The translations under genes were made by a program, and so were the position numbers. From positions 2,760,605 through 2,824,604 of the forward strand of contig JAHBTE010000001.1 of NCBI GenBank assembly GCA_019638675.1: a DNA stretch of 64,000 nt. Reading direction: 5' to 3'. The stretch is from Fimbriimonadaceae bacterium. GTDB lineage: Bacteria; Armatimonadota; Fimbriimonadia; Fimbriimonadales; Fimbriimonadaceae. Shown piece after piece: positions 16,467-63,446 of the stretch. Numbering within the stretch: position 1 is the first letter of the stretch; the number at the start of each line of letters is the position of its first letter. Below the pieces are notes generated by a model. It was not told where the DNA came from and did not search any database. It saw only the letters and a list, made by a program, of their open reading frames with translations.

Positions 16467-17720
16467 GTGACCACAGCGTACCGACGAACTTTCCTGTTTA
16501 ACCTTGGGATGTCGGCTTTCTGGTTTGCCACTAGCTATAAGTGGTTCATTCTTCTTTTTGTCCTCATCCCTGATAAAGTGAGCACGATTGTCCCGGGGGG
16601 TGAGAAAAATGGTGCCTGGGGTTTAGTCCTCGGAACTGGCGCGTTCTGGGCTCTGATAGGGCCCTCAATTTTTGGCAGAATTTACGAAACTGCACCGGGA
16701 AAGCTACGTAATCGCGGGCCGTGGATTGCCCTTGGAAGTGGCATTACCTGCCTTGCCATTTTGCTAATCGGAGGAGCTAATTCCCTTCTCACTTTGGCCG
16801 CAGCTTATTTATTGCTCCAGATTTCAGACGACCTTGGTACTGGCCCATACGCTGGGATGGTAGCTGATACGGTTCCTGCCGAACACAGGGGTTACGCGAG
16901 TTCGATTTTAGGTGGTTTCAAGCTATTTGGCCAGATTGCTTCGGCTATCGCTGCATTAATTTTGCGCAAACCCGAAGTCATCCTAGTAGGAATTGCTGTA
17001 GTGAACGTGCTCAGTGCGGCGATCACAATCTATACGATTCGGCATCTCCCAAATGCTGACCGCACCGAAACAAAACGCCAGCCCTGGATTGAGGAGTACC
17101 TGTCCCCGTTTAAGAACCCTGATTTTCGTGCCGTATGGCTCAACCGATTCATCGTTGCATTTGCGTTCGGATGCGTCACCGCCTATGCTCTCAACTTCCT
17201 CAAGGACATGCTCCCTGCCTACACGCTATTCGGTGCTGATCTGAAGGATGCAAAATCCTCGGCGAACATCCTTGCCCTCACCATTAGCTTTGCCGGGATT
17301 TTCGGAGCTGTATTCAGTGCGAGAATCGCCGACAGAACTGGGCGCAAACCACTCTTGGTCACCGCCGCAATCATTCTTTCGCTCAGCCTTTTCCCCGTCG
17401 CATTTTTCAAAGAATTCACTCCTATTTGGATTTGCGTTTTTCTTTTTGGAATTGGCAACGGGATTTTCCAATCCAGTGACTGGGCAATTGCCTCTGATGT
17501 TCTCCCGAATCCCGACAAAGCCGCTACCGAAATGGGGGCTTGGCAATCCTCCGAGACGTCCGTGCAAGTTCTGGTTGGCCTCATCATGGGTCAGTTGATT
17601 GACGCACTAAACCGCCAATACCCTGGAGAGGGACGAGGATATCAGGCGATGGTGATCATCGCCTCAACCCTATTTCTTGCGTCGATTTTTGCCGTACGTA
17701 GCATTAAATCGGCCCGCTAA
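16467..17720 (+). CDS. MFS transporter
   Basis: This 417-residue protein has about twelve hydrophobic helices and two MFS-like repeats. The helix 2-3 loop contains GRIYETAPGKLRNRGPW, a GRxx pattern like that of SLC45/sugar:cation symporter relatives, and a second loop has ARIADRTGRKPLL, close to the classical MFS signature. The start is GTG 16467. Substrate is unknown; a sugar is a weak guess from the family resemblance. It stands alone between two terminator-like regions. Confidence 0.88.
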   Translation: MTTAYRRTFLFNLGMSAFWFATSYKWFILLFVLIPDKVSTIVPGGEKNGAWGLVLGTGAFWALIGPSIFGRIYETAPGKLRNRGPWIALGSGITCLAILLIGGANSLLTLAAAYLLLQISDDLGTGPYAGMVADTVPAEHRGYASSILGGFKLFGQIASAIAALILRKPEVILVGIAVVNVLSAAITIYTIRHLPNADRTETKRQPWIEEYLSPFKNPDFRAVWLNRFIVAFAFGCVTAYALNFLKDMLPAYTLFGADLKDAKSSANILALTISFAGIFGAVFSARIADRTGRKPLLVTAAIILSLSLFPVAFFKEFTPIWICVFLFGIGNGIFQSSDWAIASDVLPNPDKAATEMGAWQSSETSVQVLVGLIMGQLIDALNRQYPGEGRGYQAMVIIASTLFLASIFAVRSIKSAR

Positions 17721-17721
17721 T

Positions 17722-18438
17722 TTACTTTGTTGGCCTTTGATAACGGCCAGAATTGATTGCTAACTCCAACGCATTCCGATCCGTCATGTACGCCGCACTA
17801 TCTGCAGTAGCCATTGGAGCTTTATCCTTTAAGGCGGGCGGGAACGCCCATAACATAATCGTGTTTGAAAGGTCTGGAATATCTTTTGCTTCTTTGCCCG
17901 CTAGAGTCGGATTCGACTCTATACGTGTGCCCATAACACTGAACAACGAAGTGCTTTTCAAGTAAGGCATTACCTGCTTTTCTAGTGATCTCCCATTCCC
18001 CATTTCAGTAGGAAATCTATCGTCCCAATCTGCTTGGTAAATCATGATGCTTGTGGCAACTTGCTTGATATTAGACAATGCTTGTGTCTTTTTAGCTGCT
18101 TGTTTAGCCTGACTGAAAACGGGGAACAAAACTGCCGCGATAGGAGCGAAACAACTGCAAAGTACGGCTATCACAACAATAGTAATAATCAGCCCTGTGT
18201 TGCTCTTTTTGGGTGCCATTGGTGGCTGTTCGTACTGTGGTTGATAAGTCGCTTGAGGTGCTGGTTGTACTGGCGGAGGCATTGATCCCACTACCGAAGA
18301 GACTTTTACAAGCCGACCGGACTCAGCCTCCTCAATATCTGTGTCTGCATGCAAGCGACCATCGCCCACGAAAAGAGCTATGTCCTCTTTGGAAAACGGC
18401 CCAGTTTTGGCACCAGCACTATCAAAGATGAAATACAT
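17722..18438 (-). CDS. GYF_2-domain protein fused to a prepilin-like segment
   Basis: This 238-residue protein has an unusual plan. Residues 1-50 (MYFIFDSAGAKTGPFSKEDI) are a GYF_2 domain, then a Pro/Gln-rich linker (about 52-80), one membrane helix (about 84-108) and a C-terminal domain starting FPVFSQAKQAAKKTQALSN. That last part matches the sequence after the helix in the cassette prepilins at 44-63 kb, including an IYQADWDDRFP block. The FTLIE cleavage site is absent, so the protein is probably kept as a membrane protein with the GYF domain in the cytosol. I start it at ATG 18438; an upstream ATG would add 8 residues. Confidence 0.75.
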   Translation of the reverse strand: MYFIFDSAGAKTGPFSKEDIALFVGDGRLHADTDIEEAESGRLVKVSSVVGSMPPPVQPAPQATYQPQYEQPPMAPKKSNTGLIITIVVIAVLCSCFAPIAAVLFPVFSQAKQAAKKTQALSNIKQVATSIMIYQADWDDRFPTEMGNGRSLEKQVMPYLKSTSLFSVMGTRIESNPTLAGKEAKDIPDLSNTIMLWAFPPALKDKAPMATADSAAYMTDRNALELAINSGRYQRPTK

Positions 18439-18529
18439 CGTCTTCGTATTATACGACTGCAAGCCCTATCTGATGACCTCTAAATTCCCCGGACCAATTT
18501 AAGGCCCGCAGGTATCCTGCCTAGTTCAA

Positions 18530-20353
18530 ATGAGCTTTGCACAGCGCACAACATTTTGCGGAGAACTCTCCGCGCAAAACGTCGGCCAGACCGTTACCGT
18601 AAACGGATGGGCGAATAAGGTTCGCGACCTCGGCGGACTTTTCTTTGTTGACGTGCGCGACCGTAGCGGCATTGTTCAAGTGATCTTCCCTGAAAACACA
18701 AAAGCTGAACTCCGATCCGAAACCTGCCTGAGCATCACCGGAACCGTGCAAATGCGCGACGAAGCCAACCGAAATCCCAAGCAGGCGACTGGCGATATTG
18801 AAATTGCGGTGACATCTTTTGAAATACTCAACCAAGCGGTGACATTGCCGTTCCCTCTCAGCGATGAAGCGCAAATGGAAAAGGTGAACGAAGAGCTAAG
18901 GGTGAAGTATCGCTATCTCGACCTGCGCCGACCTTCGATGCACCGAAACCTTAAACTTCGGGCCGCGGCAGTGCGAAAGATCAGAAGCTTTTTCGACAAC
19001 CAAGGTTTTATCGAAACTGAAACCCCGATCATCACAAAGTCCACGCCCGAAGGCGCCCGCGACTACTTGGTGCCTTATCGCCTCAATCCCGGTGAATTTT
19101 ACGCGCTGCCGCAATCTCCACAGCAGTACAAGCAACTGTTGATGGTAGGCGGCTTGGAGCGATACTATCAAATCGCCAAATGCTTCCGCGACGAATCTCA
19201 GCGAGCCGACCGCCAACCAGAATTCACCCAGCTCGACCTTGAAATGTCGTTCGTCACGCAGGAGGACATTTTGAGCCTGATTGAGGCAATGACCAAGCAG
19301 GTCATTAATGAACTCATTCCGGAGTTCAGTCTTGAAAAAGATCCGGTCACCGACTTCCCTCGCCTGACCCATGCGGAATCCATGCGCTTGTATGGAAACG
19401 ATAAACCGGATCTCCGATTTGGTCTGCAATTATTTGATGCTTCTGAATTAGTCAAGAATTCTGAATTCGGCGTTTTTGCCAGCACTGTTGCGGCGGGCAA
19501 TTTTGTTCGTGGAATCCGGCATCCCGGCGGGGCTCAACTTTCAAGGAAGCAAATCACCGAACTTGAGGATTTGGTGAAATCTTTCGGAGCAAAAGGACTT
19601 GCAAACTTCGCCGTCATCAATCCGAGCGAAGATGTTGAAGGCTCTCGACTGATGGAAAGCGGCGTGCGGATTAAGGGCGGTATTTCCAAGTTCCTCTCCG
19701 AAACCGAAGTAACAGAACTCATCAAACTCAGTGAGGCCGAGGAAGGCGACTTACTGTTATTTGTGGCCGACAGCTGGGCCGTGAGCTGCGAAGCCCTTGC
19801 CCGGCTCCGATTGCAAATTGGAACCAACTGCGGTTTGCGCGATCCAAGAAAACTCGCTTTCGGTTTCGTTGTGGATTTCCCGCTTGTGGAATGGAACGAA
19901 GACGAACAGCGATGGGATCCATCGCACCACCCGTTCACAAGCCCGAAGGCTGAGGATATTGAATTCCTCACCACCGACACTGGTCGCGTCCGCGCCGACT
20001 GCTACGACATCGTGTGCAACGGTTACGAATGGGGTAGCGGTTCTATCCGTATCCATTCGCCGGAACTACAAGCGCAAATCTTCAAAATTATTGGCGTGAC
20101 CGAAGAACAGCAAAAGGAGCGGTTCGCACATATATTGGAAGCGTTCCAACTGGGTGCTCCACCACATGGTGGAATCGCAACTGGTATTGACCGGTTGATC
20201 ATGTTCTTGATCAACGAGGATAACATCCGCGAGGTTATTCCGTTCCCTAAAATGGGTAACGGTTACGACCCGATGATGGATGCTCCTTCACCAGTTGATG
20301 AAGCCCAATGGAAGGAAATGGGCCTCCAGCCAGCGGCTCAACAAAAATTGTAA
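18530..20353 (+). CDS. aspS: Aspartyl-tRNA synthetase
   Basis: This class-II enzyme of 607 residues is of the bacterial type. The OB-fold anticodon domain comes first (VTVNGWANKVRDLGGLFFVDVRDRSG), then class-II motif 1 and 2 (CFRDE about 221-225), the GAD insertion domain (about 290-430) and motif 3 GGIATGIDRLIMFL near 545. PQSPQQYKQLLMVGG is the family flipping-loop neighbourhood. Whether it also charges tRNA-Asn cannot be told from the window. Confidence 0.97.
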   Translation: MSFAQRTTFCGELSAQNVGQTVTVNGWANKVRDLGGLFFVDVRDRSGIVQVIFPENTKAELRSETCLSITGTVQMRDEANRNPKQATGDIEIAVTSFEILNQAVTLPFPLSDEAQMEKVNEELRVKYRYLDLRRPSMHRNLKLRAAAVRKIRSFFDNQGFIETETPIITKSTPEGARDYLVPYRLNPGEFYALPQSPQQYKQLLMVGGLERYYQIAKCFRDESQRADRQPEFTQLDLEMSFVTQEDILSLIEAMTKQVINELIPEFSLEKDPVTDFPRLTHAESMRLYGNDKPDLRFGLQLFDASELVKNSEFGVFASTVAAGNFVRGIRHPGGAQLSRKQITELEDLVKSFGAKGLANFAVINPSEDVEGSRLMESGVRIKGGISKFLSETEVTELIKLSEAEEGDLLLFVADSWAVSCEALARLRLQIGTNCGLRDPRKLAFGFVVDFPLVEWNEDEQRWDPSHHPFTSPKAEDIEFLTTDTGRVRADCYDIVCNGYEWGSGSIRIHSPELQAQIFKIIGVTEEQQKERFAHILEAFQLGAPPHGGIATGIDRLIMFLINEDNIREVIPFPKMGNGYDPMMDAPSPVDEAQWKEMGLQPAAQQKL

Positions 20354-30785: not shown

Positions 30786-30843
30786 TTTGGCCAAACTTGA
30801 CAATAATTGATTGCCTTCCGCAAACTGCAGAGAGGCGCACAAT

Positions 30844-31401
30844 ATGTATTCAGTTATTGCCAGCGACGGAAATCAGTACGGACCGGTTGATCTCAGCACC
30901 ATTCAACAGTGGATTCAAGAAGGCCGTATCGTGGCTGATACTGTGATCTTAGATGGAGTGACCGGTAATCGAGGCCCTGCATCACAATTTCCTCTCATTG
31001 CTCCGCACCTACACCAAGGAGCTCCTCCTACTATGTACCAGCCCCAGGTGATCAATCAGGTGCATCAACCAGGAGCACACTACCCAGGTGGAGGAGCGTA
31101 TCAACAAGGGCAATATAGTCAGCCCCCAAATCCTTACGCACAGTATCCACGTCCAGGAATGCAGGCTTACAATCCGAACGCAAAACAAAAAGTACCTGCT
31201 GCCCTACTTGCCTTCTTCTTAGGCAGTTTTGGCGCTCACAAGTTTTATTTGGGCCATACCACTCTAGGAATCGTAATGCTCCTGGTAACAATCTTGACCT
31301 GTGGATATGGCGGACTCATCACTGGAATCTGGGCTTTATATGACTTTGTAATGATTCTTTGTGACAAAGAAACCGACGCAAACGGCTATCCTTTGGTGTA
31401 A
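30844..31401 (+). CDS. GYF_2 and TM2 domain protein
   Basis: The 185-residue protein has an N-terminal GYF_2 domain (MYSVIASDGNQYGPVDLSTI, about 1-50), a linker rich in Pro, Gln and Tyr (about 60-118), and a C-terminal TM2 domain: two helices with FLGSFGAHKFYLGHTTLGI (about 130-150) between them. TM2 proteins of this kind are small membrane proteins of unknown role. The GYF domain may bind proline-rich peptides in the cytosol. The SMP-30 gene starts 3 bases after it. Confidence 0.85.
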   Translation: MYSVIASDGNQYGPVDLSTIQQWIQEGRIVADTVILDGVTGNRGPASQFPLIAPHLHQGAPPTMYQPQVINQVHQPGAHYPGGGAYQQGQYSQPPNPYAQYPRPGMQAYNPNAKQKVPAALLAFFLGSFGAHKFYLGHTTLGIVMLLVTILTCGYGGLITGIWALYDFVMILCDKETDANGYPLV

Positions 31402-44650: not shown

Positions 44651-45556
44651 ATGAAAAAAGCATTTACGCTTATAGAGCTGCTTGTGGTTATTGCGATCAT
44701 CGCAATCCTTGCAGCAATCCTCTTCCCAGTCTTCGCTCAGGCAAAAGAGTCTGCAAAGCAAGCCTCGACTATTAGTAATGCCAAACAAATCGGATTGTCT
44801 TTCAACATATATGCAACCGATTATGATGATAACTTCCCGTGTTCTTATGCTTACGTTACAGGCGCAACAGAACGTTACTGGTGGAATTTTGCCTTCTCCT
44901 TCCCGAACGGAAGTGCTTTACCTTCAACAGGTTACTTAGATAACGAAGATTCGATAGGATGGGCTAACGCGATTTACCCGTACGTCAAAAACTACGACAT
45001 CTACAAAACTGGCAATCCAATTGAAGTGGCGGGTGTTGCGGCAAACACTGCGGCAGGAGCACCTGCTCAGCGATACTCCAGTTTCCAAATGAACGGATTG
45101 CTTTCGCACTATAGCCTGACTGCTATCAGCAGTGTTTCTTCGACACCGTTGACGTGGCAAGGATATGGCAAACAAATGATCAAGGGATTTGCGCGCCCAA
45201 ATCCTCGATTGATTTGCAACGCCACTGGCCCCTGCCGTTTTAGTCCTGGACAACCAGCTCAGCCGGGTGCAAACCAGCCATTAGGAAGTCAGATTGGTTT
45301 TTGGTCCACAACATCCCCTGTTTGGTCATTCCGCCAAGGTCAGGTGTTTATGTATGCCGACTCATCAACCAAGTTCATCAACTTTGGTCGAGGACTGACT
45401 GATGCCGCTGCAGGCGTTAATGCGCGACATCCTTATGTAAACCTGACGACGCAGGGTTACCCAGGCGGTACAGGCTTTACAACTGCGGTTTGCCAAGAAA
45501 CTCCAACCTCTACGGCATATCACTGTGCGTTTCGACCTGACCTGGATCGACCATAA
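44651..45556 (+). CDS. Cassette 1 prepilin-like protein
   Basis: This 301-residue protein begins [20 protein letters not shown], a class-III prepilin signal, with Ala at -1 and Glu at +5 of the cleavage site, and a hydrophobic assembly helix (about 5-25) ending LFPVFAQAK. The rest is an outer domain of about 270 residues. It holds the family centre [17 protein letters not shown] (about 143-159), a Cys pair in [23 protein letters not shown], and the tail CAFRPDLD. It is more distant from cassettes 2-5 than they are from each other. The protein would be processed by a prepilin peptidase and act as a (pseudo)pilin. No assembly genes are nearby. Confidence 0.85.
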
Positions 45557-45560
45557 GAAT

Positions 45561-45767
45561 ATGAAAAAGCTAATTCATTTCGTGGTGGGAGCAGCCCTCA
45601 TCGCATCCTTTGCGCTCTGTGGCTGTTCGCAAAATGACGCAGAAACACCTGGAGCCAATCCGACCTCAACAACAAATCAAAGTGGAATGTCTGCCGTCCC
45701 GCAGGAAAGTGTTGGTACAAGCTCTGTACCCGCGGCCACAGGCGACGGAGATTCCCAAGGTAAATAG
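45561..45767 (+). CDS. Cassette 1 small lipoprotein
   Basis: The 68-residue protein starts 4 bases after the prepilin stop. The N-terminus (MKKLIHFVVGAALIASFALC) is a signal peptide ending in the lipobox LCGC, so it should be lipidated at the second Cys. The mature part is about 45 residues, low in complexity, rich in Thr, Ser, Gly and Pro, with no fold expected. It has the same position and layout as the lipoproteins of the other cassettes. Confidence 0.75.
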   Translation: MKKLIHFVVGAALIASFALCGCSQNDAETPGANPTSTTNQSGMSAVPQESVGTSSVPAATGDGDSQGK

Positions 45768-45786
45768 AACTTAGCTCATAGACGCT

Positions 45787-45826
45787 AGAGTTTGACTCGC
45801 TTCATACGAGTCAAACTCTTTTTTTG
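45787..45826 (+). terminator. Terminator of cassette 1
   Basis: AGAGTTTGACTCG (45787-45799) pairs with 45807-45819 round a 7-base loop, followed by seven T. A strong intrinsic terminator 19 bases past the lipoprotein stop. Confidence 0.95.
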
Positions 45827-46073
45827 TCAGAGTACGATCTTCCAGAGAGGCTTCACCCGGTAAACACACCTGAGCCTTTGGCCCTATCCAAAAAGTTCAT
45901 CGAACTAAATCGGCTTGAGTCCATTTTTGGGTGGCTATTGTAACTTTTTGGGGATAGTCGAGCCAAGTGAGCTTAAGCAGGGCCTCTAAAATGTATGTAG
46001 TTTCTTGTTCAACTTGTTTATTTTGCGTTTACAAAGCAAAATTCGCCTTGTTCCCAAAAAAATATTTTTTTCT
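45827..46073. other. Gene-free stretch before cassette 2
   Basis: No convincing reading frame lies between the cassette-1 terminator and the cassette-2 promoter. A long hairpin can form at 46046-46084, where CTTGTTCC and GGAACAAAG enclose a self-complementary A7-T-A-T7-like core. Its right arm contains the GGAAC box of the cassette-2 promoter, so the site might control promoter access. The rest shows nothing I recognise. Confidence 0.4.
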
Positions 46074-46186
46074 AGGAACAAAGGCACAGAACTTGAGGTA
46101 CAAATTATAGACGTAGGTATTAAGGCCATGTAAATGGTCTGTTTCACCTACGAATATCTAGTTCCCTCGTTTTGAGGAACTTGGAG
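46074..46186 (+). promoter_or_regulatory. Cassette 2 promoter and two-hairpin 5' leader
   Basis: Box AGGAACAA (46074-46081), 17 bases, box TACAAA (46099-46104). Hairpin A: CGTAGGT (46112-46118) pairs with ACCTACG (46146-46152), with an inner stem GGCCAT/ATGGTC. It lacks a U-tract, unlike the others. Hairpin B: AGTTCCCTC (46160-46168) pairs with GAGGAACT (46174-46181) with one bulged base. It touches TTGGAG before ATG 46197. Confidence 0.6.
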
Positions 46187-46196
46187 CACTAATACA

Positions 46197-47132
<936 letters not shown>

Positions 47133-47138
47133 GCAAGC

Positions 47139-47339
47139 ATGAACAACATCATCAAACTAATCGTAGTTGCAGCGGTTGCATTCACAATCGTTGGTTGCTC
47201 ACAAGGCACTTCAGCTGAAGATGCAAAAGTCAACGCGGATGTAGGATCTGGCGAAATGCCAGCAAAACTCCAAGGTGCTGATTCGGCGGGAGGAGGTGGC
47301 GGAAACGCTCCTGAAACCCCGAATACATCACCTGATTAG
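47139..47339 (+). CDS. Cassette 2 small lipoprotein
   Basis: The 66-residue protein starts 6 bases after the prepilin stop. Its signal peptide (MNNIIKLIVVAAVAFTIVGC) ends in lipobox IVGC, with Ser at +2, so transfer to the outer membrane is possible. The mature 47 residues carry EDAKVNADVGSGEMPAKL, a Gly run and a PETPNTSPD tail. The protein is identical in every residue to the cassette-5 lipoprotein at 51476-51676. Confidence 0.82.
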   Translation: MNNIIKLIVVAAVAFTIVGCSQGTSAEDAKVNADVGSGEMPAKLQGADSAGGGGGNAPETPNTSPD

Positions 47340-47356
47340 TCCACTGTGATGTGGTT

Positions 47357-47394
47357 AACCCCCTTTCCAATATTGGAAAGGGGGTTTTCTTTTG
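47357..47394 (+). terminator. Terminator of cassette 2
   Basis: AACCCCCTTTCCAA (47357-47370) pairs with 47373-47386, followed by TTCTTTT. The same hairpin, base for base, ends cassette 5 at 51694-51730. Confidence 0.93.
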
Positions 47395-47474
47395 TGCTAT
47401 CGTTACTGTAATCGCAGAAACTTTGAACTTGCACACTTAATTTTCTACCCATTCCGAAAAAATTGTTAATTTTA

Positions 47475-47582
47475 GGGAACTCCTGTTTTTGAATCCAATG
47501 TAGTAGGTAATTGGAGACAGCCTCATCTGACCTTTGGTTAGATGTGCTGTCTTTTTGTTTGTCGCCCTGCGGCAAACAGGAG
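47475..47582 (+). promoter_or_regulatory. Cassette 3 promoter and two-hairpin 5' leader
   Basis: Box GGGAACTC (47475-47482), 17 bases, box GTAGTA (47500-47505). Hairpin A: AGACAGC (47515-47521) pairs with GCTGTCT (47546-47552), inner stem CATCTGACC/GGTTAGATG (47524-47544), then five T. Hairpin B: GTTTG..GCC (47557-47566) with GGC..AAAC (47571-47577). AGGAG follows at 47578-47582; ATG at 47593. The inner stem is very different from that of cassette 4 but still pairs. Confidence 0.7.
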
Positions 47583-47592
47583 CAATAAATAA

Positions 47593-48528
47593 ATGAAAAA
47601 AGCATTTACGCTGATTGAACTGCTGGTCGTCATCGCGATTATCGCAATTCTTGCTGCTATCCTCTTCCCAGTTTTCGCGCAAGCGAAAGTTGCTGCCAAA
47701 AAGACATCTGCTCTTAGCAATGTCAAACAGATCGGCACATCATCTGCTATTTACATGGCAGACTACGACGATCTGTTCCCAATCTCCTATTCAATCCGGG
47801 CGAACGGTACCGTTCGATGGAGCACTGTTATTCCTTATCCAAGCGGTGCAATTACCAGCGGTGGTTGGAATGCAGCGAACATCATTCCGGAAACCGATGT
47901 TCACTGGTCAACCTCTATGCAGCCATACATTAAGAACCTGCAAATGACCGAAACTGGCCTTCAAAGCACTCAAGTCATTGCTGGAGACACTTATGGAACA
48001 AAGGTTGGTACCTCCGGACTGGTTATGAATGGTCTACTGAGTACCTATAGCGGAACCGCTATAGAAGCAATCTCCACCGTTCCTGCATTCTGGACCGGTA
48101 TGGGTAGCTGGCAATACAAAGGTCGAGCTTTCTCCAACCCATCACTCCGATGTGATGCTACCGTTGGCGCTGACTGCCGATTCAACCCAGGTGGTACCGC
48201 TCAAGCTGGTAGCACTGTTGCTAGCGGCGGAAACCAATCTGCTTTCTTTAGCATGGGTACAGCTTGGAAAGTCTGGACTTACGGTTCAGACAGCAAAACT
48301 GGTGGTGCAATCTTCACCCGAGCTGATACGTCAGCGAAAACCGCTCGAGTTGGAACCGTGGATAGCCCTAACTTCCACACCTCTGCAGCAACCGATCCTT
48401 ACGCACTTGTAGGTGCAAATGGAACGTTCAGCTACTGGACCACTTCACAAGGCGATTGTAAGGATCCAGGCAGTGATAACGGAACATTCCAATACATCTG
48501 CTTCTTCCGACCTGACCGACTCCCATAA
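47593..48528 (+). CDS. Cassette 3 prepilin-like protein
   Basis: This 311-residue prepilin is the closest relative of cassette 2. Most differences lie in short patches: IPYPSG region (about 78-84), TGLQSTQVI (about 119-127), the stretch [20 protein letters not shown] (about 201-220) and [12 protein letters not shown] near the C-terminus. The N-terminal 60 residues and the tail [19 protein letters not shown] are unchanged. Clustered differences between otherwise identical proteins fit recombination or selection on exposed loops. Confidence 0.88.
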
Positions 48529-48530
48529 GC

Positions 48531-48728
48531 ATGAATAACATCATCAAACTAATCGTAGTTGCAGCGGTTGCATTTACAATCGTTGGTTGCTCACAAGGCA
48601 CTTCGGCTGAGGATGCAAAAGTTAATTCGGATGTAGGCTCTGGGGAGTTGCCAGCCCAGCTTCAGGGATCTGAAGCTCCTGGCGGCGGGGGAAATGCTCC
48701 GGAAACACCTAAATCTACTCCCGATTAG
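48531..48728 (+). CDS. Cassette 3 small lipoprotein
   Basis: The 65-residue lipoprotein starts 2 bases after the prepilin stop. Its first 29 residues equal those of cassette 2, including lipobox IVGC. The mature part differs in places: GELPAQLQGSEAPGGGG and a PETPKSTPD tail. Same short acidic and Gly/Pro-rich design. Confidence 0.8.
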   Translation: MNNIIKLIVVAAVAFTIVGCSQGTSAEDAKVNSDVGSGELPAQLQGSEAPGGGGNAPETPKSTPD

Positions 48729-48743
48729 TCATAGGTGATCTGG

Positions 48744-48779
48744 CCGTCTCCCTTCCGAAACATTTTGGTCGGGAGACGG
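48744..48779 (+). terminator. Hairpin ending cassette 3
   Basis: CCGTCTCCC (48744-48752) pairs with GGGAGACGG (48771-48779) round an 18-base loop. No T-run follows, so termination by this hairpin is doubtful although its place matches the other cassette terminators. Confidence 0.6.
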
Positions 48780-48877
48780 TAATGACCATCTTGGTGCTAC
48801 CAAAAGCACGATTTAATGGATCATTGAACTTACACAACAACTAAATAACGCCCATTCCGGAAAGTTTTTTACTTTTG

Positions 48878-48982
48878 GGGAACTCTTTGTTTTTAACCAT
48901 GAGTAGTAGGCGGTTGGAGACAGTCTCATTTGGCGAAAGCCAGGTGATGCTGTTTTTTTTGTTTGTCATTGACAAACAGGAG
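48878..48982 (+). promoter_or_regulatory. Cassette 4 promoter and two-hairpin 5' leader
   Basis: Box GGGAACTC (48878-48885), 17 bases, box GTAGTA (48903-48908). Hairpin A: AGACAG (48918-48923) pairs with CTGTTT (48950-48955), inner stem CATTTGGC-gaaa-GCCAGGTG (48927-48946), then a run of T to 48960. Hairpin B: GTTTGTC (48961-48967) pairs with GACAAAC (48971-48977). AGGAG at 48978-48982; ATG at 48994. Confidence 0.7.
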
Positions 48983-48993
48983 CAATAATTACA

Positions 48994-49929
<936 letters not shown>

Positions 49930-49943
49930 TCGAAACCTGACGG

Positions 49944-50174
49944 ATGAACTTTACTGAAAAAATGAACAACATGAAATACTTCATCAAACTCGTAGCTCTT
50001 GGAGTCATAGCTTGCTGTGCAATCGGTTGCTCTAGCGGAACTTCGGAAGATGATGCGAAAGTGAATAGTGACGTAGCTACAGGAACAACCCCACCTCCTC
50101 AAATGGAAGGTTCAGCTAACGCAGGTGGAGGTTCGGGAACAGGTGGGCCAGAAACGCCTAGTACCGGCCCATAG
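49944..50174 (+). CDS. Cassette 4 small lipoprotein
   Basis: The 76-residue form starts at ATG 49944; ATG 49962 (MNNMKYFIKL) aligns better with the MNNIIKLIV start of the other copies and may be the true one. The lipobox is AIGC with Ser-Ser after it. The mature part holds DDAKVNSDVATG, Pro-rich and Gly-rich stretches and a PETPSTGP tail, matching the family. Confidence 0.75.
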   Translation: MNFTEKMNNMKYFIKLVALGVIACCAIGCSSGTSEDDAKVNSDVATGTTPPPQMEGSANAGGGSGTGGPETPSTGP

Positions 50175-50199
50175 ACTAACGATCGTTTCATGTGAGATT

Positions 50200-50232
50200 A
50201 ATCCCCCAGCAATGAGCTGGGGGATTTTTTAC
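50200..50232 (+). terminator. Terminator of cassette 4
   Basis: AATCCCCCAGC (50200-50210) pairs with GCTGGGGGATT (50216-50226) round a 5-base loop and is followed by T at 50227-50230. Confidence 0.95.
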
Positions 50233-50419
50233 ATTCAAAGTAGGTCAAATTACTTGTTTCCTATGCAATTAAACTATTTTTCCGAACGAAATCAGTATCT
50301 CAATTCGTCTTATAAATCCAATTTTGAATTAACTTATATTAGAAGTTAATTCTTTGCATTTTCCTCATAGTATTTTGCATAGGGTCCTTAGACCTGTTCC
50401 TTAAAAAATAAAATAATAA
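50233..50419. other. A/T-rich gap before cassette 5
   Basis: About 190 bases of strongly A/T-rich sequence lie between the cassette-4 terminator and the cassette-5 promoter. I see no reading frame with family resemblance and no repeat. It is a candidate recombination boundary, because the flanking cassettes differ in origin. Confidence 0.35.
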
Positions 50420-50524
50420 AGAAACACTAATTTCAACTTGAGAGTAGTATCAAGTTCTGAGATAGTCAGGTCGACCAATAGGTCAGGTGAGCACTATCTT
50501 TTTTGTTTGCTTTGCAAACAGGAG
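50420..50524 (+). promoter_or_regulatory. Cassette 5 promoter and two-hairpin 5' leader
   Basis: Box AGAAACAC (50420-50427), 16 bases, box GTAGTA (50444-50449). Hairpin A: AGATAGT (50460-50466) pairs with ACTATCT (50493-50499), inner GACC/GGTC, then five T. Hairpin B: GTTTGC (50505-50510) with GCAAAC (50514-50519). AGGAG at 50520-50524; ATG at 50538. AACTTG/CAAGTT (50435-50456) could also pair across the -10 box. Confidence 0.65.
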
Positions 50525-50537
50525 CAAAAATTAAGAA

Positions 50538-51473
<936 letters not shown>

Positions 51474-51475
51474 GC

Positions 51476-51676
51476 ATGAATAACATCATCAAACTAATCG
51501 TAGTTGCAGCGGTTGCATTTACAATCGTTGGTTGCTCACAAGGCACTTCAGCTGAAGATGCAAAAGTCAACGCGGATGTAGGATCTGGCGAAATGCCAGC
51601 AAAACTCCAAGGTGCTGATTCGGCGGGTGGAGGTGGCGGAAACGCTCCTGAAACCCCGAATACATCACCTGATTAG
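51476..51676 (+). CDS. Cassette 5 small lipoprotein
   Basis: The 66-residue protein is identical to the cassette-2 lipoprotein, and the DNA, with only scattered changes, stays alike into the shared terminator. It starts 2 bases after the prepilin stop instead of 6. A recent duplication or conversion of the 3' half of the cassette is the simplest explanation. Confidence 0.82.
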   Translation: MNNIIKLIVVAAVAFTIVGCSQGTSAEDAKVNADVGSGEMPAKLQGADSAGGGGGNAPETPNTSPD

Positions 51677-51693
51677 TCCACTGTGATGTGGTT

Positions 51694-51730
51694 AACCCCC
51701 TTTCCAATATTGGAAAGGGGGTTTTCTTTT
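51694..51730 (+). terminator. Terminator of cassette 5
   Basis: Same hairpin as at 47357-47394: AACCCCCTTTCCAA and its complement, then TTCTTTT. Similarity to cassette 2 stops after this point. Confidence 0.93.
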
Positions 51731-51798
51731 AAAAAACGATATTCGGCATTATAGTATGTTTCCAGACTATTCTTCATAATTCTTAAGCCAGTATTTAG

Positions 51799-51912
51799 GG
51801 GAACCAAATAAGGGTCGTAAAGTGTAGCAATTCAAAGAGGCAGCTTCGAATTGGTGCAAATCAATTCGATCTGCCTCTTTTTGTTTTGTGTATCTGCACA
51901 AAACAAGTGGAG
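51799..51912 (+). promoter_or_regulatory. Cassette 6 promoter and two-hairpin 5' leader
   Basis: Box GGGAACCA (51799-51806), 17 bases, box GTAGCA (51824-51829). Hairpin A is the strongest of the set: AAGAGGCAG (51835-51843) with CTGCCTCTT (51871-51879), inner TCGAATTG/CAATTCGA, then T to 51882. Hairpin B: GTTTTGTG (51883-51890) with CACAAAAC (51897-51904). GTGGAG at 51907-51912; ATG at 51920. Confidence 0.68.
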
Positions 51913-51919
51913 AACCCCC

Positions 51920-52837
51920 ATGAAAAAGGCATTTACATTAATTGAACTGCTGGTCGTCATCGCAATTATCGCAATTCTTGCAGCAATCTTATTCCCGGTT
52001 TTTGCGCAAGCAAAAGAAGCCGCCAAGAAAACCCAATCACTTAGTAACGCTAAACAGATCGGAACCGCGGTAATGATCTACATCACCGATTACGATGACC
52101 TCTTCCCTATGGCCAACAACGCAAACTGGAACGCACCAACATGGGCTTTTGCTCCTGTAGAACTGCCTGCAAACTGGCGGTCTAATAACGCGGCATGGGT
52201 TAATGTGAATTCAAGTGTCTATCCGAACAACGTCTATGCCTATACCAAAAATAATCAAATCATGGAAATTGCGGGGGCCAGACAAGATAGCACCTACGCA
52301 TCAGCAACTCCGCTAGCTTCGCGTGTTACTGCTCCATACCGAGCCGGTTGGAACCTTAACGGATTTCTTTCCTCATACTCGCAAACGAGTATAAGTGAAG
52401 TCTCCAGAATTCCATTACTGTGGGCTGGAATGGGCAAGCAAAATATTGAAGGCTATTACATCATAACGCCTATGCTGGGCTGCACTGGCTCAACCTCAAC
52501 AAACTGCTTATTCAACCCAACCGCACTTCCAACTCCCGTTAGTCTCTTCGGATCAACTATTGGAGGAAGCGTATTCTCAACTGCTTATCCTAACCCTGCT
52601 CCTCAGGCAATCCATTCTGGTGGAACGGTCTACGTTCGATCCGATTCATCTGCCAAGTTCTCGAAAATAGGAAACCCTAACACTGCGAATAACTTAACTG
52701 CAGTGGACGCTTTTTCAGGATACGATGCTGCTGGCGTAGGCAATGCTGTGACTTACTGCGCGAGTTCAACAACTGCGCCCGGATATAGTTGCATCTTCCG
52801 ACCTGACTTTGATTTTGACTATAACAACTGGTTCTAA
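51920..52837 (+). CDS. Cassette 6 prepilin-like protein
   Basis: The 305-residue protein starts at ATG 51920; an in-frame extension to 51851 runs through the leader hairpins and is not coding. After the common N-terminus the body differs much from cassettes 2-5 but keeps ITDYDDLFPMA, LNGFLSSYSQTSISEVS (about 151-167), a Cys pair in GCTGSTSTNCLFNP, VRSDSSAKFSKIG and the tail CIFRPDFDFD. It ends with DYNNWF, a short extension not seen in cassettes 1-5. Confidence 0.87.
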   Translation: MKKAFTLIELLVVIAIIAILAAILFPVFAQAKEAAKKTQSLSNAKQIGTAVMIYITDYDDLFPMANNANWNAPTWAFAPVELPANWRSNNAAWVNVNSSVYPNNVYAYTKNNQIMEIAGARQDSTYASATPLASRVTAPYRAGWNLNGFLSSYSQTSISEVSRIPLLWAGMGKQNIEGYYIITPMLGCTGSTSTNCLFNPTALPTPVSLFGSTIGGSVFSTAYPNPAPQAIHSGGTVYVRSDSSAKFSKIGNPNTANNLTAVDAFSGYDAAGVGNAVTYCASSTTAPGYSCIFRPDFDFDYNNWF

Positions 52838-55910: not shown

Positions 55911-56798
55911 TTAGTATTGAATTGGTGTCCCGAAGTTTGAGAAGTCAAAGTCTGGCATAAACAACAGGGTGTGGCAGAAGTTAGTATCTTGATACTCAAC
56001 CCACTGTGCGACACCACCCGCGTTGTAGCGAGCCCAGAAGTCTGTACGGAAGTCGCTTGCATTTGTTGGACCAGAGGCAACTCTTTGGAACTTAGCATGA
56101 CTGTCTGAAAATACGGCGTTCATACCGTTACCATACAACCACATTGAAGCACCAGCTGGGTTACTCAGTTCGCTCCAAGTACCGTTAGCACCGCTACAAG
56201 TTGGACTTGAAGGAACAAATACGCACGCAGAGCCAGCCGTTGGGCAGCGAAGGAATGGTGCAGGCCGGGTAGCACCCTTGTAGTTTCGATTTCCGTAAGC
56301 AGAAGTCATCATTCTCAACTGCGCAACTTCGTTAATTGCGGTAGATGAGTAGGATTGAAGGTTGCCGTTGAAACTGTAACCGATGTCATACCGAGTTTGA
56401 CCAGCACTATAAATCCAACCAGGGATACTGTAATCGTTTCCTGAAGGAGTTTTTAGGATTTGCCAGTTCTTAGTGTATGCATGGGTTGAGTTTGGAAATA
56501 CGTGACGTCGAGCATCGTGATATGCCGCAGATACGGTTCCGTCCCAATCGGCTGGAGTATCAACGTACGATCCGCTGAACCAAGTTGGGCCAAGCGACGG
56601 AATCGTCAAGGGGAACAGATCGTCATAATCCGCCAAATAAATTTGGACTGCGGTACCGACTTGCTTTTGATTGGATAAGTCTTGTGTCTTTTTAGCTGCA
56701 ACTTTAGCTTGTGCAAAGACAGGGAAAAGAATGGCCGCCAAAATGGCGATGATGGCAATAACCACCAGCAGTTCAATCAATGTGAATGCCTTTTTCAT
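55911..56798 (-). CDS. Cassette 7 prepilin-like protein (inverted)
   Basis: The 295-residue protein starts at ATG 56798 with the family signal [18 protein letters not shown]. It keeps [29 protein letters not shown], a Cys pair in RCPTAGSACVFVP, FSDSHAKFQRVA (closest here to the classical DGH motif) and the tail FMPDFDF. The SxCxGANGTWSEL phrase is shared with cassette 8, so the two form a subgroup. It lies head-to-head with nuoF and tail-to-tail with nuoE. Confidence 0.87.
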   Translation of the reverse strand: MKKAFTLIELLVVIAIIAILAAILFPVFAQAKVAAKKTQDLSNQKQVGTAVQIYLADYDDLFPLTIPSLGPTWFSGSYVDTPADWDGTVSAAYHDARRHVFPNSTHAYTKNWQILKTPSGNDYSIPGWIYSAGQTRYDIGYSFNGNLQSYSSTAINEVAQLRMMTSAYGNRNYKGATRPAPFLRCPTAGSACVFVPSSPTCSGANGTWSELSNPAGASMWLYGNGMNAVFSDSHAKFQRVASGPTNASDFRTDFWARYNAGGVAQWVEYQDTNFCHTLLFMPDFDFSNFGTPIQY

Positions 56799-62528: not shown

Positions 62529-63446
62529 ATGAAACGTGCATTTACATTGATTGAACTGCTTGTGGTGATTGCGATTATCGCGATTCTCGCCGCAATCCTC
62601 TTCCCCGTCTTCGCCCAAGCGAAGGTCGCCGCGAAAAAAGCTAAAGGCTTGGCTGAAATCAAGCAAATGGCTACCGCGACGATCATTTATCAGTCCGACT
62701 ATGACGATCTGTTCCCGCTTGGTTATGGATTCGATGCATCTTGTGCAAACGGCGGCTGGTGTCTAAACTACTACCATGCGGTACCAGCAGACTGGCGACC
62801 AGGCTTCCCACAATCTTATGTAGACCGAGCACTGCAAAACCCAGTTAACTCAACTCAGCCTTACCGCAAGAATTACCAAATGGTAAAAATTGATGCTGGC
62901 ACAACAAAGAGCCTCGCTGTCACTTACACGGGCGCATTAAAAACACCAGCAGATACGGGTTACACTTACAACGGTTTGCTCTCAGGCTATAACGGAACTG
63001 CGGTCAACCAAATCAGTAGCACGCCAATGTGGCATGCGATGTACGGAAACATCAACGTAAAGGGATTCAACATTTCCTCACCTGCTTTGTACTGTACAAA
63101 TGGTGCTGCCGCTTGTAACTACGTTCCTGCAACTGCGAGTTGTAGCGGAGCAAACGGAACTTGGACGGTCGTTATCATTGAAGCTACGCAAGCTGCATTT
63201 GGTTCTCACCACATCTACGGAAACGGTGAAAACTGGACATATACCGATTCTTCAGCTAAGTTCAAGAAACTTGGTATGCAGCTAAATGGTGCATCAGACT
63301 TCCGCAACGATCCATGGACTCGTTACGATAGCGGAGCCCGACCAGGCGGCGGATGGTATGACCAGTGGTATTGCCACATGTATGCATTCACCCCAGACTG
63401 GGATGGACAAGCACCAACCGCTCCGTTCGAAGAGGTTTGGTATTAA
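62529..63446 (+). CDS. Cassette 8 prepilin-like protein
   Basis: The 305-residue protein begins at ATG 62529 ([13 protein letters not shown]), 10 bases after GGAGGG. It keeps [31 protein letters not shown], a Cys pair in CTNGAAACNYVP, YTDSSAKFKKLG and the tail CHMYAFTPDWDG. ATASCSGANGTWTVV links it to cassette 7. It is 9 kb from the array and stands next to a MacB-type permease gene. Confidence 0.87.
   Translation: MKRAFTLIELLVVIAIIAILAAILFPVFAQAKVAAKKAKGLAEIKQMATATIIYQSDYDDLFPLGYGFDASCANGGWCLNYYHAVPADWRPGFPQSYVDRALQNPVNSTQPYRKNYQMVKIDAGTTKSLAVTYTGALKTPADTGYTYNGLLSGYNGTAVNQISSTPMWHAMYGNINVKGFNISSPALYCTNGAAACNYVPATASCSGANGTWTVVIIEATQAAFGSHHIYGNGENWTYTDSSAKFKKLGMQLNGASDFRNDPWTRYDSGARPGGGWYDQWYCHMYAFTPDWDGQAPTAPFEEVWY

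Follow-up and report, generated by a model that had tools for sequence, protein, structure and literature searches.

A GYF domain on a signal-less pilin-type head in a membrane protein of Armatimonadota

The window, the whole 64,000-nucleotide stretch of Fimbriimonadaceae DNA analysed here, encodes a protein in which an N-terminal GYF domain is joined, through a proline-rich linker and a membrane helix, to a shortened pilin-type head that lacks the prepilin signal. With slightly better than even confidence, we read it as a single-pass inner-membrane adaptor or sensor of N-in/C-out topology, whose pilin-type head no longer belongs to the pilus pathway. Because the same design recurs across Armatimonadota, the pilin head has been reused in this phylum as a domain of general use, membrane-anchored or secreted, probably for binding or sensing.

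Gene and domain layout

The gene is one open reading frame of 238 amino acids on the reverse strand of the window (stop codon at 17722-17724, ATG at 18438, alternative in-frame TTG at 18462), in a source genome of 2.85 Mb. It is divergent from aspS (18530-20353, +) and convergent with an MFS transporter gene (16467-17720, +). Its parts are listed in Table 1; both FPVFSQAKQAAKKTQALSN and YQADWDDRFP, which a previous sequence-only reading had placed behind the membrane helix, are present there. The AlphaFold model, computed from a nine-sequence alignment, reached a pLDDT of 81 and a pTM of 0.54, a low value in keeping with two rigid parts on either side of a flexible linker.

Table 1 Features of the GYF/pilin-head gene in the window
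Feature	Position	Strand	Basis
Complete gene for 238 aa, with a GYF_2 domain, a Pro-rich linker, a membrane helix and a reduced pilin-type (DUF1559) head	17722..18438	-	Pfam, tblastn, AlphaFold model, dN/dS 0.047
GYF_2-type domain, residues 1-53	18280..18438	-	Sub-threshold Pfam match, model against solved GYF domains, family profile
Disordered linker rich in proline (residues 54-81), Lys-Lys preceding the membrane	18196..18279	-	pLDDT below 50 over 54-82; sequence
One unbroken helix (residues 82-137), a membrane span followed by an amphipathic stalk (pilin alpha-1); Glu+5 absent	18028..18195	-	DSSP helix 82-137; alignment to mature pilin from residue 1 onwards; no [G/A]-x4-E
Predicted extracytoplasmic alpha/beta head (reduced DUF1559 body), residues 138-238	17725..18027	-	pLDDT mostly 89-96; PilA4 Z 8.2, PulG Z 6.9; hhalign 99.3%
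YQADWDDRFP, residues 134-143: conserved Y-x2-D-x-D-x3-P motif, also in prepilins	18010..18039	-	Y134, D137, D139 and P143 invariant in 13 GYF fusions

The N-terminal domain is a GYF domain

Pfam scans matched GYF_2 (PF14237) to residues 2-34 and DUF1559 (PF07596) to residues 110-160, each below its cut-off: GYF_2 scored 15.7 bits with the whole protein and 19.4 with the domain alone, against a gathering cut-off of 25.8, and DUF1559 scored 12.8 of 23.3 bits. One relative passed the GYF_2 cut-off (31.4 bits), all 18 N-terminal heads of the family matched GYF_2 (best E 8.5e-9), and a profile of these 18 heads matched solved GYF domains by sequence, namely GIGYF1 (E 2.7e-4) and Myxococcus xanthus 7z3c (E 0.0011). 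When the window model was searched with Foldseek, GYF matches headed the list, all with E above 0.08, and a second look with VIA at residues 1-53 returned GYF domains, including the one in the M. xanthus gliding protein, with Z up to 5.0, in the range below 8 that may reflect a common arrangement. The model matches support the GYF fold, and within the GP[FY] motif G13-P14 is invariant across the GYF fusions. Family profile and model thus confirm the N-terminal domain as a GYF domain, and agree with the earlier proposal of a cytosolic GYF_2 domain and a proline-rich linker in front of the membrane helix. Aligned to GIGYF1, the window domain keeps GPF; because the EW of GIGYF1 is replaced by LF, its Trp becoming Phe, and GYF by GRL, binding of proline-rich ligands may be weakened.

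This genome also joins GYF_2 to different membrane parts, as GYF-TM2, SPFH-GYF and GYF pairs. The gene for the GYF_2-TM2 membrane protein (TM2 56 bits) lies in the window itself at 30811-31401 (+), about 12 kb from the GYF/pilin-head gene.

The C-terminal part is a shortened pilin-type head

The pilin fold, a long alpha-1 helix (residues 82-137) running into an alpha/beta head, is present in the model. A second look with VIA at residues 83-235 placed pilins in the first eight rows, in the expected register: PilA4 (Z 8.2, rmsd 3.7 over 122 residues) was the sole match above 8, followed in the lower range by PulG (6.9), PilV (6.4), PilX (6.0) and the PAK pilin (5.3). By hhalign, AlphaFold and VIA alike, the C-terminal part has a pilin fold and not one unrelated to pilin bodies.

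Kinship to the cassette prepilins was also evident from sequence. In tblastn searches of its own genome, these prepilins were 50-55% identical to the window protein over residues 84-159 (E down to 2.6e-17), and the helix region matched further prepilins as well. A head profile that starts past the membrane helix aligned to the prepilin profile with 99.3% probability in hhalign (E 1.6e-20, 84 columns, taking in PYxKN and the Asn-x2-Leu region), so the kinship exceeds the shared helix; this profile-profile comparison was used in place of a structural one, the cassette prepilin model having a pLDDT of 47. The stalk, LFPVFSQAK...LSNIKQ, is nearly identical to that of the cassette prepilins, and Y134, D137, D139, P143 and N176 are kept in 13/13 GYF fusions. 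Judged by these alignments, the window head is akin to the prepilin body, in a shortened form. The match to cassette prepilins reported earlier therefore stands as homology, but not as an unchanged body, since some 100 residues make up the C-terminal part, compared with some 250 in the prepilins. A TIGR04294 (H-X9-DG) scan of the window protein gave no match, the His of the motif being absent, while relatives in other classes do match it (L173, 20.9 bits against a cut-off of 19).

Eight DUF1559 prepilins with FTLIE signals are encoded elsewhere in the window, at 44651-52834 (+), 55914-56795 (-) and 62532-63443 (+), four of them close together and 81-93% alike. The genome as a whole has about 30 signal-bearing DUF1559 prepilins.

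The prepilin signal is absent

Type IV pilin heads normally occur only behind a prepilin signal. The sequence-only reading had noted the loss of the FTLIE signal, and indeed TIGR02532 found no match in the window protein, whereas a cassette prepilin scored 31.8 bits; at +5 the window protein has Ile or Val, not Glu. Where the membrane span begins, [G/A]-x4-E occurred in 0/71 membrane-anchored non-prepilin relatives and 12/12 prepilins, figures that serve as a consistency check because the two groups had been sorted with a tighter version of this motif. The prepilin peptidase presumably leaves the window protein uncut, and the protein would not be polymerised. Its retention in the inner membrane, as suggested before, is supported as likely.

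A candidate membrane adaptor or sensor

As an adaptor or sensor, the window protein would stay in the inner membrane with its GYF domain in the cytosol, a topology that we infer solely from the Lys-Lys ahead of the span and from the domain types. Its outer head would recognise an envelope component, either a ligand or a surface pseudopilin with a related head, with the acidic YxxDxDDxFP motif as the likeliest binding site, and the GYF domain would hold a cytosolic partner, linking the two across the membrane. That the head acts in recognition is suggested by its being the constant part across contexts, with Y134, D137, D139, P143 and N176 kept, and by its position in M56 proteins, where it occupies the place of BlaR1's sensor. 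We know of no ligand or partner for any DUF1559 head, and this, together with the partial conservation of the aromatic positions in the GYF domain, is the chief doubt about the reading.

An earlier suggestion was a receptor or an assembly factor that mimics a pilin. A receptor survives as one option; we consider it unlikely that the protein is an assembly factor of a pilus or pseudopilus, that is, an inner-membrane protein whose helix and head pack on pseudopilins while the GYF domain recruits machinery from the cytosol. The stalk LFPVFSQAK, nearly as in the prepilins and unlike that of the paralogue, would suit packing on pilins, and contact with prepilins is conceivable because the two stalks are so close. 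The genome also provides a prepilin peptidase (C1:1107082), several T2SSF proteins (at 0.16, 0.60, 1.11 and 2.21 Mb) and its roughly 30 signal-bearing prepilins. However, neither of the two GYF-pilin genes, at 2.78 Mb (window) and 0.79 Mb (L016), has pilus or type II secretion genes close by, the neighbours of L016 being HtrA-like, OsmC and tpiA genes, and the same head is found, with no adjacent membrane helix, in secreted proteins and at the C-terminus of M56 peptidases. Moreover, the stalk is unconserved or broken by glycines in the paralogue family. This second family (L016 in this genome; L133, L087, L089, L088 and L055 elsewhere) has the GYF domain in every member, and in four of its six species a Gly-rich stretch, e.g. 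QGGGQGAGGGLVGGGVPG, separates membrane and head, a break that could not be tolerated in a pilin stalk, which must be a continuous helix.

We also find it quite unlikely that the head is mere structure, a stable extracytoplasmic ballast or spacer under constraint, with the GYF domain and linker doing the work as in further GYF_2 membrane proteins. The occurrence of GYF_2 with different membrane parts in this genome and the free exchange of heads would agree with such a role, but the orthologues at the same locus in three sister species (G004, G005 and G006) argue against it: they have no GYF domain, yet their membrane helix and head are retained with 38-44% identity and carry the conserved motifs. 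Since these orthologues lack GYF and keep the head, the pilin-type head is the constant part. They begin with a proline-rich tail, e.g. MDIPPQIPSDQTPPPNF, and are already signal-less, and hence the GYF domain is an exchangeable head on a protein that had no prepilin signal. The idea that GYF replaced a pilin's signal at this locus is thus not borne out. A frameshifted GYF domain upstream of one sister orthologue (L045) was considered and ruled out, there being too little space before aspS.

That the protein is a minor pilin whose exceptionally long leader is cut at Gly82-Leu83, releasing the GYF domain, appears very unlikely. Behind Lys77-Lys78-Ser-Asn-Thr, Gly82 and the hydrophobic residue next to it can be read as half a cleavage site, kept in the closest orthologue, but there is no Glu at +5, the Gly is not kept in other members of the family (VWVVV, VWTIV), and the leader would hold a folded domain of 53 residues.

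The window gene is under strong purifying selection (dN/dS about 0.05). Compared with the orthologue of Fimbriimonadaceae bacterium ACE_ARM8 (G003), which is 91% identical over the whole protein, dN/dS was 0.047 overall, 0.04 in the GYF part and 0.08 in the head. An accidental or misassembled fusion, with which the missing GYF domain in three sister species might agree, is refuted by this orthologue, which has the same fusion in an independent assembly; the selection and the same layout in 11 genera also speak against it. A more distant relative, at about 40% identity, is found in Armatimonadetes bacterium Uphvl-Ar1, and these two relatives place the source organism in Fimbriimonadaceae, Armatimonadota.

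The head across Armatimonadota

A search for the same fusion in relatives, as the sequence-only reading had proposed, recovered it widely. The GYF-fusion profile matched end to end (matches starting no later than position 13 and reaching at least 200, the doubtful G009 left out) in 24/291 Armatimonadota genomes, representing 11 genera and 5 families; six of the genera belong to the same family as the window genome and five to four other families. Two automatic GYF labels scored low: that of L084 (6.2 bits) was judged false, and that of L177 (7.7 bits) was kept as doubtful. In families outside the class, five proteins (L167, L170, L173, L174 and L175) combine a zinc ribbon, GYF, a proline-rich linker, a membrane helix and a DUF1559 head with H-X9-DG. 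A search of a plasmid collection for this zinc-ribbon/GYF form gave no match.

The head profile alone was found in 55/113 genomes of the class, in many contexts. Some proteins carry a zinc ribbon ahead of the transmembrane helix and head (L083, L112, L121 and L168), others a proline-rich tail, and others are secreted with different N-terminal domains. Across the phylum the cytosolic heads are exchanged between GYF, zinc ribbon, both, or a proline-rich tail. In Fimbriimonadaceae the head also stands at the C-terminus of M56/BlaR1-type peptidases (PF05569, 116-122 bits in the four proteins scanned; L093, L095, L097 and L092, with L094 identified by sequence similarity only). The window genome itself encodes an exported propeller-like protein that ends in the head with no membrane helix before it (L023:1755-3191, -); its DPPIV_N match is weak, and L099, L100 and L115 are propeller-like relatives. 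The head also occurs in tandem sets, such as six small membrane proteins, devoid of both GYF and prepilin signal, whose genes adjoin the acetyl-CoA carboxylase genes accA/accD in the same genome (L020:1864-5269, -; C1:1874363-1877768).

The window protein can be set against several known systems. Like type IV pilins and pseudopilins (PilA4 6xxd, PulG 1t92), it has a continuous alpha-1 helix running into a small alpha/beta head; unlike them, it lacks the prepilin signal and Glu+5 and carries a folded cytosolic domain ahead, so that neither cutting nor assembly is expected. With the DUF1559/SBP_bac_10 (PF07596) and H-X9-DG (TIGR04294) proteins of Planctomycetes and Armatimonadota it shares a homologous head and the YxxDxDDxFP and ADG motifs, but most of those proteins bear a prepilin signal and have a head of roughly double the length, the window head being reduced. 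A cytosolic GYF on a membrane protein is common to GYF_2 membrane proteins (GYF-TM2) and to M. xanthus GltJ (7z3c), which has a zinc-ribbon/GYF layout. The zinc ribbon beside GYF in some window relatives, the double cytosolic head of the five proteins above, recalls GltJ. No pilin-type head is known in GltJ, whereas the outer domain of the window protein is one, and no motility genes are linked to the window gene. BlaR1 and MecR1 are M56 peptidases, and relatives of the window head end such proteins in the same bacterial family; a peptidase is absent from the window protein. The sensor of BlaR1 itself is a penicillin-binding domain. Finally, a DUF4190-DUF1559 protein (L132) likewise has its membrane part merged into the pilin helix without a prepilin signal, with a DUF4190 membrane domain where the window protein has a GYF head.

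The GYF and DUF1559 parts are known, and in the literature collection searched no paper joining them was found; as far as tested, a signal-less pilin head used as a plug-in domain is undescribed. These contexts show that within one phylum the pilin head is a mobile domain, present in proteins that are membrane-anchored, peptidase-linked or secreted. More tentatively, and with rather low confidence, the Armatimonadota pilin head, once uncoupled from the prepilin signal, could serve as a general extracytoplasmic sensor module on GYF/zinc-ribbon switches and M56 peptidases, in a signalling family that reads surface pseudopilins or their ligands. DUF1559 families can be very large, with 74 genes in Rhodopirellula baltica (PMC2754498) and 68 paralogues, two of them essential, in Planctopirus limnophila (PMC10632474); their role becomes easier to test because what the head binds can be approached through the short membrane form. 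In Fimbriimonas ginsengisoli, 65/79 PulG-like genes have the N-methylation motif (PMC4072686), and a mobile signal-less head may explain the 14/79 that lack it.

In a tree of 120 heads (133 columns), the N-terminal type required 34 changes, against 66 when shuffled. Read from this tree, N-terminal types are inherited yet often swapped; 39/117 of its forks are open and the order of GYF gain and loss is not readable from it. As a separate observation, an open frame of 1440 amino acids in another genome (L082, G069) carries two copies of the head together with TPR-like repeats.
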